NCBI GenBank assembly: GCA_949292215.1
Contig: CASEYW010000087.1
Location: forward strand, 1 to 64,000
DNA: 64,000 bases
Direction: 5' to 3'
Source of the DNA: an uncultured bacterium
Lineage (GTDB): Bacteria > Verrucomicrobiota > Lentisphaeria > Victivallales > UBA1829
Made by a program: the position numbers and the translations under genes. Of this stretch, positions 1-6,668 are shown piece by piece. Under the pieces are notes generated by a model. The model was not told where the DNA came from, ran no database searches, and was given only the letters and a program-made list of their open reading frames with translations. The first letter of the stretch is position 1; each line of letters opens with the position of its first letter.

Positions 1-100
1 CCGCACCAGATCCCCCGCAGCACCTGAACTCGTCGTTTATGGCTGCTCGGTTCCCCGTCTGACCCGTTCACGGGACTTCAGCGCACGGGGTCCAATACGG
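1..100 (-). ncRNA. ffs: Signal recognition particle RNA, small bacterial type
   Basis: Read on the minus strand, bases 64-41 give GGUCAGACGGGGAACC then GAGCAGCC. This is the SRP domain IV hairpin: GUCAG, a 3-bp stem, a GGAA tetraloop, the return stem, and AGCAGCC on the far side of the asymmetric loop. The flanks also fit: the 5' end (CCGUAUUGGACCCC, bases 100-87) pairs with the 3' end at bases 1-16 using only Watson-Crick and G-U pairs apart from one mismatch, giving one hairpin of about 100 nt. The RNA binds Ffh and targets membrane proteins to the Sec translocon. It starts 22 nt after the accD stop on the same strand, so it may be cut from the accD transcript or have its own promoter inside accD. 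The 3' end could extend a few bases beyond the window. Confidence 0.88.
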
Positions 101-2872: not shown

Positions 2873-3042
2873 CTCTGCTTCTCAAAAAAACGAAAAAGAA
2901 ACGGTTTTCAGCCATCTCTTTCAGAAACATTTAGCGGTCCATCCCGGAAAAACGGACTGCCTGAAACAGGCTTGCCTGAATGTTTTCCATCCAGGAAGTC
3001 CATCCCCATTCCTCTCTGAATCTCCTTTTTTCCGAAAACGGC

Positions 3043-3070
3043 TTGAATTTTCAAAAAGAGAAGATATACT
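3043..3070 (+). promoter_or_regulatory. Probable promoter of the Fur/PerR-like gene
   Basis: TTGAAT (3043-3048) and TATACT (3065-3070) are separated by 16 nt and lie 47 nt before the ATG at 3118. No clear Fur or PerR box was found by eye. Confidence 0.55.
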
Positions 3071-3117
3071 TTCAAGAACAGTTCCTAAAAACAGCAATTT
3101 CGGAGAAGATCAAAGAA

Positions 3118-3516
3118 ATGAAACTCAGCAACACAAATCAGCGCAGGGTCATTATTGAGGAGCTGAGAAAACTCAAATCCCATCCCACCGCGGAAGAGCT
3201 GTATTGCAAAGTCAAGAGACGAATCCCGCTGATCAGTCTCGCAACGGTATATCGCAATCTTGATGTGCTCTCGGAAGCGGGAGAAGTCCTCCGGCTTGAA
3301 ATTGCAGGCAAACAGAAGCGGTTCGACGGCGACACCTCTCCTCATTATCACCTCCGCTGCAAAGAGTGCGGCGCCGTGGAAGACATCATGCCGGAAGGGA
3401 TCGAATCCGCACGGGAAAATCTGGAACATTTCATCTCCGGACGCATCTGCAATGCAAGACTGGAATTCGACGGTTACTGCCGGAACTGTTACTCGGCTTT
3501 AAAAAAAGCCAACTGA
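3118..3516 (+). CDS. Fur family transcriptional regulator, PerR-like
   Basis: Metal-dependent repressor of the Fur superfamily, 132 residues. The winged-helix DNA-binding half contains the family signature HPTAEELY and SLATVYRNLDVL (about residues 22-55). The C-terminal half has PHYHLRCKECG and YCRNC, that is the histidine metal ligands and two CxxC pairs of the structural zinc site. The start is ATG 3118, with CGGAGAAG upstream; the longer frame from 2980 runs through the promoter. Its place directly before superoxide reductase, a flavodiiron protein and rubredoxin argues for a PerR-like peroxide or oxygen sensor rather than an iron-uptake Fur, but metal choice cannot be read from the sequence. 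Confidence 0.9.
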   Translation: MKLSNTNQRRVIIEELRKLKSHPTAEELYCKVKRRIPLISLATVYRNLDVLSEAGEVLRLEIAGKQKRFDGDTSPHYHLRCKECGAVEDIMPEGIESARENLEHFISGRICNARLEFDGYCRNCYSALKKAN

Positions 3517-3604
3517 AATCAGGCTGAAATTCCCCCGTTCAGCATAACCCGGGGAACCATTCGTTCCCAGAACTGTTGAACCTTAAAACATAAGGAAGTA
3601 AAAA

Positions 3605-4006
3605 ATGAGCGGAAAAGAACACACCATTCTCAAATGCGCTGAATGCGGCGCAATCGTGGAAGTCCTCGATGAATGCACCTGTACAGGCGACTGCACCTTC
3701 CAGTGCTGTGGCAAACCAATGACTGAAATGAAGGAAAAGACGGCGGAAATGGCGACCGAAAAACATGTTCCCGTCGCAACAGCACTTCCCTCCGGCGGGA
3801 CAAAGGTCGTAGTCGGTTCGACTCCTCATCCGATGACCCCCGAGCATCACATTGAATGGATTGAAATCATCAACGGGCCCTATGTCAACCGTTGCCGTCT
3901 CAAACCGGGCGACGCTCCCGAAGCCCAGTTCCATGTGACCGTGAAACCCGGAATGGTCGTGCGCGAATACTGCAACCTTCACGGCCTCTGGATCAATAAA
4001 CTTTAA
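3605..4006 (+). CDS. dfx: Desulfoferrodoxin (superoxide reductase)
   Basis: Reduces superoxide to hydrogen peroxide in the cytosol without releasing O2, a typical defence of anaerobes. Both domains of the two-centre form are present in 133 residues: an N-terminal desulforedoxin-like domain with CAECG and QCCGKPM (centre I iron) and a C-terminal superoxide reductase domain with EKHVPV, the HPMTPEHHIEW histidines and the EYCNLHG cysteine-histidine pair (centre II iron). Between the centre I ligands sits ECTCTGDC, with three additional cysteines not required for centre I. A strong AAGGAAG precedes the ATG. The 88-base gap before it contains a 6-bp hairpin (GGGAAC/GTTCCC, 3552-3568). It is followed closely by its likely redox partners. 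Confidence 0.95.
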   Translation: MSGKEHTILKCAECGAIVEVLDECTCTGDCTFQCCGKPMTEMKEKTAEMATEKHVPVATALPSGGTKVVVGSTPHPMTPEHHIEWIEIINGPYVNRCRLKPGDAPEAQFHVTVKPGMVVREYCNLHGLWINKL

Positions 4007-4036
4007 TCATATCAAATCGGAATCAGGAAAGTAAAG

Positions 4037-5242
4037 ATGCCATTCAAAGCTGTCAAAATCACGGACAAAGTCTGGTGGGTGGGCGCAATCGACTGGAACC
4101 TCGCGGAGTTCCATGGCTACCACACACACCGGGGCTCCACCTACAATGCCTATCTCGTGCTTGGAGACAAACCGGCTCTCATCGATACGGTCAAAGCACC
4201 ATTCAAACAGGAAATGTACTCCAGAATCGCCTCCGTGATCGATCCGAAAAAGATCCGGATCATCGTCTCCAACCACGCGGAACCGGATCACTCCGGAGCG
4301 CTTCCCGAGGTTATTGAGGAACTCAAACCGGAAACCGTTTATACCTCCGTCAACGGAGTCCGGATCCTGGATGCGCAGTTCCACATCGGGGAGAAACTCA
4401 CCGCGGTCAAAACCGGTGACAGCATCGATCTCGGCGGACTCACCATGTCCTTCATCGAAACAAAAATGCTCCACTGGCCGGACAGCATGTTCTCCTATCT
4501 CAAAGAGGAAAAAATCCTGTTCAGTCAGGACGGCTTCGGCATGCACCTGGCGACAGACAAGCTCTTCGTTGATGAAAACGACTGGGATGTTGTCGAATTT
4601 GAAATGGAAAAATATTACGCAAACATCCTGCTTCTTTACTCTCCGCAGGTTCTTAAACTGCTTGAGGTCTTCCCGACCTTGAATCTTGACGTGCAGTACA
4701 TTGCCACCGACCACGGTCCGATCTGGCGCGGCAAGGATATCGCAAAACCGCTCGAACTTTACAAGAAGTTTGCCGAACAGAAACCGCAGCCCCGTGCTGT
4801 TGTCGTTTACGACACCATGTGGGGAGCCACGGATAAAATGGCGCGCTCCATTGCCGACGGCATCCGTTCAACTGGCGCAGGCGTCACAGTCTGTTCCATG
4901 CACTCCAGATCCCGCAGCGACGTGGCAACCGCTGTCATGGGCGCAGGTGCGCTGGTCGCCGGGTCCCCGACGATCAACAACATGCTCTTTCCCTCCGTTT
5001 CCGATGTGCTCTGCTATCTGAAGGGGCTCCGTCCGAAAAATCTGGCGGGATTTGCCTTCGGGTCCTTTGGCTGGAGCGGGGAAGCCGCTGTGCAGGCAAA
5101 TGACTGGCTCAAAGAGATGGGCGTCGAAATCGTCCGGGAGCCTCTCAAACTCAAATTTGCCTCCTCGGACGCCGATTTCCAGGCATGCTTTGAAGCCGGC
5201 GTACAACTGGGAAACCTTCTGCTTGAAAAAGCAAAGCAATAA
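4037..5242 (+). CDS. Flavodiiron protein (FprA family, O2 or NO reductase)
   Basis: Cytosolic enzyme that reduces O2 to water, or NO to N2O, with electrons from rubredoxin. The N-terminal metallo-beta-lactamase-like domain (about residues 1-250) holds the diiron motif NHAEPDHSG with H80, E82, D84 and H85, and later HWPDSMF and DHGPIWRG histidine segments. The C-terminal flavodoxin domain (about 255-400) starts with [16 protein letters not shown] and binds FMN. At 401 residues it is the simple class A form with no fused rubredoxin. The rubredoxin is instead the next gene, 38 nt downstream. Which gas it prefers is not readable from sequence. Confidence 0.95.
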
Positions 5243-5280
5243 CTCAACTAAAGAACCCTGATAAAAAAGGAGAAATCATC

Positions 5281-5439
5281 ATGGACAAGTATGTGTGCAA
5301 CGTCTGCGGTTATGTTTACGATCCCGCGAAAGGCGATCCCGACAACGGAATCGAACCCGGCACCCCGTTCGAAAAACTTCCGGAAGACTGGGTCTGCCCG
5401 GAATGCGGAGCCGGCAAGGATGAGTTCACAAAACAGTGA
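5281..5439 (+). CDS. Rubredoxin
   Basis: A 52-residue iron protein, too short for many gene finders. It has the two cysteine knuckles [10 protein letters not shown] (C6, C9) and [11 protein letters not shown] (C39, C42), and the conserved [14 protein letters not shown] loop, so it should hold one Fe(Cys)4 centre. AGGAG lies before the ATG. Placed just after the flavodiiron protein and desulfoferrodoxin, it is probably the electron donor to one or both. Its last 20 bases overlap the start of the next gene. Confidence 0.97.
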
Positions 5440-6250: not shown

Positions 6251-6288
6251 ACAGCCTGAAAACAGGTAAAAACTCGGAAAAAACGCAT

Positions 6289-6310
6289 TTTCTGCGTATT
6301 TTCTGCGTAT
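6289..6310. repeat. Two tandem copies of an 11-nt unit
   Basis: TTTCTGCGTAT occurs twice head to tail (6289-6299 and 6300-6310), just upstream of the promoter of the small lysine-rich gene. One helical turn per copy would suit a regulator-binding site; this is inference. Confidence 0.45.
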
Positions 6311-6326
6311 TTTTTCAAATATTGAT

Positions 6327-6401
6327 TTGCAAATGATTTTATCCCATGTTACTGTTTACCGTGGAGGTACAAAAGTGTACCTGGTCAGTTAACCCATTAA
6401 C
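6327..6401 (+). promoter_or_regulatory. Promoter and structured 5' leader of the small basic protein
   Basis: TTGCAA (6327-6332) and TACTGT (6350-6355) with a 17-nt spacer are a modest promoter. Just downstream lie a perfect 7-bp inverted repeat AGGTACA-AAAG-TGTACCT (6365-6382) and a second repeat GTTAA-CCCA-TTAAC (6388-6401). They could be operators or stacked leader hairpins. AGGGAG then precedes the ATG at 6415. Confidence 0.45.
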
Positions 6402-6414
6402 AGGGAGATGAGTC

Positions 6415-6615
6415 ATGGAGTTTTACAACGTAAAGAAGAGAACCAAAGTCGTGATCGCTGAAAAGAACTGCAAGAAAGTCGTCTACAAGAGAGAGACCGC
6501 CAAAGGCGTTCAGGAACGCTATGCCGTCAAGGCGAAAGATGACGACGGAACAAACCTGACGAAGTTTGTCAGCAAAGCGGATTTTGCCAAATTGAAATGC
6601 CCGGTCGGAAAGTAA
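6415..6615 (+). CDS. Small lysine-rich protein of unknown function
   Basis: A 66-residue basic protein that I do not recognise. It begins MEFYNVKKRTKVVIAEKNC, has roughly a quarter lysine and arginine, two cysteines (C19 and one in KLKCPVGK near the C terminus) and no signal peptide or membrane segment. Evidence that it is real: a good ribosome site (AGGGAG), a promoter with hairpins upstream, and a strong intrinsic terminator 25 nt after the stop, so it is a single-gene transcript. The alternating hydrophobic pattern suggests a small beta-rich fold. A nucleic-acid-binding role is possible because of its charge, but that is a guess. Confidence 0.75.
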   Translation: MEFYNVKKRTKVVIAEKNCKKVVYKRETAKGVQERYAVKAKDDDGTNLTKFVSKADFAKLKCPVGK

Positions 6616-6639
6616 TCCGCTTTTCAGAATCAGACGTAT

Positions 6640-6668
6640 GCCCCGTTCAGATGAACGGGGCTTTTTTT
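6640..6668 (+). terminator. Intrinsic terminator after the small basic protein
   Basis: CCCCGTTCA-GA-TGAACGGGG (6641-6660) is a perfect 9-bp stem followed by CTTTTTTT. Confidence 0.92.

Follow-up and report, generated by a model that had tools for sequence, protein, structure and literature searches.

Cren7 and Sul7d (Sso7d/Sac7d, PF02294), small DNA-packing proteins of archaea, are the closest described systems to the protein reported here. Both are about 55-66 residues long and strongly basic, and Sso7d has the strand order b1-b2-turn-b3-b4-b5-helix. Two further families bear on the comparison: DUF2500/YhhM (PF10694), a membrane-anchored family whose barrel is similar to the one predicted here, and DUF5679 (PF18930), whose members are small, mostly stand-alone and contain two CxxC knuckles. 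In Kaur et al. 2018 (PMC5906684), the DNA contacts of Cren7/Sul7 are placed on the b3-b4-b5 sheet, and these proteins are argued to derive from zinc ribbons through loss of the metal site. Among the open-licence PMC papers listed by our searches, none was seen to describe the present family or a Cren7/Sul7d protein from bacteria.

The window, by which we mean the whole 64,000-nucleotide stretch of Lentisphaeria DNA analysed, contains a conserved gene for a basic protein of 66 residues (P0001). The gene and its flanking features are as follows.

6288-6309, + strand: tandem 11-nt repeat, TTTTCTGCGTA twice; matched in 0 of 100 shuffles, and overlapping a terminator-like stem (ACGCA-TTTTC-TGCGT) at 6283-6297.
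6322-6350, + strand: putative promoter, TTGATT-17-CATGTT; proposed from sequence and position in relatives, with a consensus score not above chance.
6365-6382, + strand: hairpin in the leader, AGGTACA-AAAG-TGTACCT, close to where the mRNA is inferred to start; covariation and predicted fold.
6386-6403, + strand: second inverted repeat, CAGTTAACCCATTAACAG; imperfect, outside the predicted fold and not conserved.
6402-6407, + strand: Shine-Dalgarno sequence, AGGGAG; seen in the sequence and in the relatives checked.
6415-6615, + strand: gene for the basic small barrel protein, 66 aa; open reading frame, homologues, alignment and predicted fold.
6640-6668, + strand: intrinsic terminator; terminator scan and similar hairpins in relatives.

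The first-pass annotation had read this segment as a self-contained transcription unit with a strong ribosome site and a near-perfect terminator, and comparison with relatives bears this out. The Shine-Dalgarno sequence sits 7 nt before the ATG, and the terminator stem (6640-6661) comprises 9 bp, seven of them G-C, followed by T7. At the 27 loci checked (the window counted) a Shine-Dalgarno sequence is always present and a terminator-like hairpin lies within 150 nt in 23; the gene is usually stand-alone. Neighbouring genes are shared among close relatives only, none being common to different lineages, and the small protein thus probably acts in trans. The promoter claimed in the same annotation did not hold up as well. 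No promoter was detected upstream of the gene in a sigma-70 scan, and the best score of a looser search of the window leader was equalled by 85% of shuffles. A promoter-like pair scoring at least 8 is found in 21 of the 27 loci, but many shuffles score as well, and for most leaders the consensus does not rise above shuffles. By its position, the pair at 6322-6350 is a plausible promoter. The tandem repeat is present as described in the window, and also in altered or unaltered form among its relatives: of four genus members compared, three have it (altered in one) and the fourth, L004, lacks it. Overall it counts among the unsupported features of the unit, as do a consensus promoter and the second inverted repeat.

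Two inverted repeats had been described in the leader. The first, with a stem that would begin some 8-10 nt into the inferred mRNA, is predicted to fold and covaries. In a set of 12 leaders picked for showing the hairpin, plus two with an identical hairpin, compensatory changes are observed at five of six pairs over nine distinct rows; 48 of 54 cells are paired, a level reached by none of 5000 column shuffles, kinship being ignored. Six further family loci examined (L009, L023, L024, L025, L026 and L027) either lack the hairpin or have a short or unrelated one. A MAFFT alignment of the leaders put several hairpin arms in the wrong place. The folding energies of all 19 distinct family leaders are singly mostly not significant, with a positive z in four; combined, they give a Stouffer value of -4.3, but the sequences are related. 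The second repeat contains a mismatch, lies outside the minimum-free-energy fold and is not kept in relatives; it is probably not a structure. As a first guess, the hairpin may protect or stabilise the 5′ end of the mRNA; alternatively, the protein itself could bind it in a feedback loop. The unit had been called tightly regulated, but we see no sign of a regulator; a hairpin early in a short leader is just as much to be expected of a stabilised, constitutive mRNA.

The protein is lysine-rich, as first noted, with a net charge of +10 and a pI of 9.8. Across the family (n = 57) the length ranges from 58 to 75 residues and the median pI is 9.7, in keeping with the size and charge of Cren7 and Sul7d; the pI exceeds 8.5 in 56 members, and the net charge of the least basic is as low as 0. 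The members fall into two length classes, one of about 66 residues with FYNVKKR and one of about 58 with FYDVK..DGRNLT. Residues V6, K7, L48, T49, F51 and K54 are invariant in the alignment, R35 and K50 nearly so, and the acidic residues of the DDDG loop are also conserved. The codon usage of the gene is closer to that of rplM/rpsI than in 39 of the 41 window reading frames of at least 150 aa, which fits the high expression that had been proposed. Judged from sequence, the protein is probably well expressed and abundant.

Homologues were found in 35 of 41 relatives and in 34 of 36 genomes of the window's family. Within the phylum, 59 of 194 genomes encode the protein, all of them in the window's class; if the kinship order of the genome listing holds, this is 59 of 65 in the class against 0 of 129 in the rest of the phylum, the class figure counting six non-matching genomes placed by that order and 115 non-matching genomes being unlisted. 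Within the phylum the family therefore appears confined to one class. The first-pass annotation had suggested a homology search limited to Lentisphaerota and had counted the lack of any homologue as refuting evidence; homologues clearly exist, and the family extends well beyond that group. Its wider distribution is patchy, taking in Chloroflexota, KSB1/Calditrichota, Patescibacteria, Myxococcales and viral contigs; the 48 loci of the homologue search include Anaerolineae, KSB1, Calditrichota, CPR2, Woesebacteria, Myxococcales and a Margulisiibacteriota MAG. A member is present in 3 of 151 genomes of Chloroflexota (the phylum of G216), 18 of 82 in the phylum of G217 and 22 of 286 in that of G218. 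Most genomes have a single copy and some more than one. Phage records yielded no match, and a plasmid search a single weak partial match. No clear domain fusion emerged, the long frames at three places examined being start-codon extensions or diverged copies.

Several individual loci deserve mention. The viral carriers are IMG/VR contigs L164 (167 kb; 3998-4189) and L165 (52 kb; 4001-4198), whose proteins show 54% and 45% identity. The predicted model also has matches among uncharacterised giant-virus proteins (Marseillevirus LCMAC102/201/202; BFVD A0A481YUN9, A0A481YWF2 and A0A481YYB0), all at probability 1.00, with E values between 1.2e-3 and 5.7e-3 and 28-31% identity. An Anaerolineae bacterium has a tandem duplicate of the gene (L049, 269-463 and 565-759). 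An in-frame TAG interrupts one family-level copy, L009 (1501-1698; G007), shortly before its end, reflecting either a pseudogene or an assembly error. Directly upstream of a diverged copy in G116 sits a frame (L199, 48-758) that presumably resembles the C-terminal part of a CobW metal chaperone.

The 66-residue protein matches no Pfam or NCBIfam family over cut-off, in agreement with the first reading that its family was not recognisable, and its best E against PHROGs is 0.13. The 57-member alignment (A1) retrieved no acceptable Pfam or NCBIfam family, and neither the window protein nor the alignment gave a match in PDB sequence searches; a single member matches NCBIfam Mop (E 0.00068). The family is previously unnamed and no Pfam or NCBIfam model reaches cut-off. 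Homology to Sul7d by sequence was rejected: a search of six genomes with PF02294 gave nothing over cut-off, the family alignment does not match it either, and the single-sequence score of Sso7d against A1 is weak, being reached by 5 of 200 shuffles. For Cren7, hhalign gives nothing, and no sequence similarity was found.

The AlphaFold model of the window protein (57 sequences, pLDDT 91.4) has strands at 2-5, 10-13, 19-28, 31-41 and 47-52 and a helix at 54-59. The same order of elements is predicted from a single sequence for the Anaerolineae homologue L051 (pLDDT 91.0), and both models confidently predict a five-stranded barrel, SH3-like in our reading, with a short C-terminal helix. Foldseek against the PDB gave no match at E 0.001 (best E 0.15). 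With VIA-align, where every Z obtained is below 5, a weak value in the range that program calls common, the best rows for the window model are 3rd4 (Z 4.3, rmsd 2.9, 54 residues) and 3q6c (Z 4.1, 50 residues); the DUF2500 protein YhhM matches both entries. Affitins derived from Sac7d, which match Sso7d/Sac7d in sequence, reach only Z 2.7 and 2.5. The Sul7d topology was proposed from the strand order and these affitin rows before the L051 comparison was made. For L051 the top four rows are all Cren7 (Z 4.8, 4.6, 4.5 and 4.2), the alignments covering 49-54 residues and the chains being 53-59 long; the first covers nearly the whole length (54 residues, rmsd 3.4). Sso7d follows with Z 3.6 (57 residues over 1-64, rmsd 3.3) and DUF2500 with Z 3.7 and 3.6; the scores of uS12/eS23, Tudor and OB folds are not far below those of Cren7. 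The family resembles Cren7 in its length of about 60 residues, its charge and its predicted five-stranded barrel, but differs in its C-terminal helix and its bacterial hosts. In the models, that helix and the strand order agree with those of Sso7d, a Sul7d protein.

As the predicted shape is most like that of the archaeal DNA-packing proteins, we consider the family probably nucleic-acid-binding, the reading that best fits a probably well-expressed, basic, stand-alone and patchily distributed mini-barrel. Duplex DNA is our tentative choice of ligand, favoured over RNA or the ribosome. By analogy with Cren7 and Sul7d, the unit would yield a probably abundant, cytoplasmic, basic protein whose most likely ligand is nucleic acid, probably double-stranded DNA bound with little regard to sequence. 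The contact surface would be a curved sheet formed by strands 3, 4 and 5, as in Cren7 and Sul7d, with R35, L48, K50 and K54 on the putative binding face. All 41 relatives have HU, so that the place of a main nucleoid protein is already taken; any chromatin role would be that of a minor nucleoid protein beside HU, additional to it and not a replacement.

The same face of the barrel could instead bind rRNA or mRNA, making the protein a lineage-specific ribosomal or hibernation factor or an RNA chaperone. The basic charge, the probable good expression and the single gene in most genomes suit this as well, uS12, eS23 and eL38 occur among the structural rows (Z up to 3.8), and in the window the gene lies upstream of rplM-rpsI. 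That neighbourhood is, however, not common to other lineages, the scatter across phyla is unlike a ribosomal protein, and no ribosomal protein in the PDB does better than E 0.29 with the alignment profile. We regard a role on RNA or the ribosome as doubtful.

A different proposal concerns origin and is compatible with either kind of binding: descent from a DUF5679-like zinc ribbon that lost its cysteines, keeping what is presumably a nucleic-acid role. YCVKCR.K of DUF5679 is in register with FY[DN]VK.R.K of the family (the shared N-terminal pattern is Y-x-V-K-x-R-x-K), and the alignment score is reached by 9 of 600 column shuffles. Family members make up 10 of the top 20 non-DUF5679 matches of the DUF5679 profile (2 of 200 shuffles reach this), and L149, a DUF5679 protein in which the first zinc knuckle is disrupted, is matched by the family profile at E 0.023. 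Against this, the hhalign probability is only 2%, the best family score with the DUF5679 profile is reached by 7 of 200 shuffles, and a search for DUF5679 in five genomes from the window's order yielded nothing over cut-off. These statistics are suggestive, not conclusive, and we think such a descent unlikely. Membership of DUF5679 itself was rejected, as there is no profile match and A1 contains no cysteine pairs at the positions of the two knuckles. In L149 (about 1496-1631, - strand) the first knuckle reads YCVKDRKK; the gene is seemingly stand-alone, with a strong promoter-like pair and a Shine-Dalgarno sequence.

Less likely again is a protein-binding barrel, an adaptor or inhibitor akin in fold to DUF2500/YhhM or bacterial SH3-type domains and binding no nucleic acid: DUF2500 heads the structural matches of the window model and DUF7489 is matched by 5 of 57 members (best E 0.0041), but DUF2500 gives no profile match and an alignment score reached by 17 of 200 shuffles, DUF7489 stays below its cut-off in all 21 genomes searched, the median pI is high and there is no conserved partner gene.

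Whichever ligand is right, there is an annotation gap: a small protein near-universal in a bacterial class, and present in distant phyla, has no Pfam or NCBIfam model over cut-off. Returning to duplex DNA, the preferred ligand, if DNA coating were true, bacteria would possess their own Cren7/Sul7d-like chromatin protein, and the zinc-ribbon-to-barrel route proposed for archaea (PMC5906684) would gain a second, bacterial case to test. The full version of this, in which a DUF5679-like ribbon lost its cysteines and, separately from the archaeal case, gave rise to an SH3-like mini-barrel that coats DNA, is spread over several bacterial phyla and some viruses and serves as a core Lentisphaeria nucleoid protein beside HU, we rate as improbable, the least likely of the proposals weighed here.

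Elsewhere in the window, positions 1-97 (- strand) encode a bacterial small SRP RNA. Upstream of the small-protein gene, the frames at 2980-5439 (+ strand), which we take to encode a Fur/PerR-type regulator, desulfoferrodoxin, a flavodiiron protein and rubredoxin, form what would be an ordinary oxygen-stress cluster.
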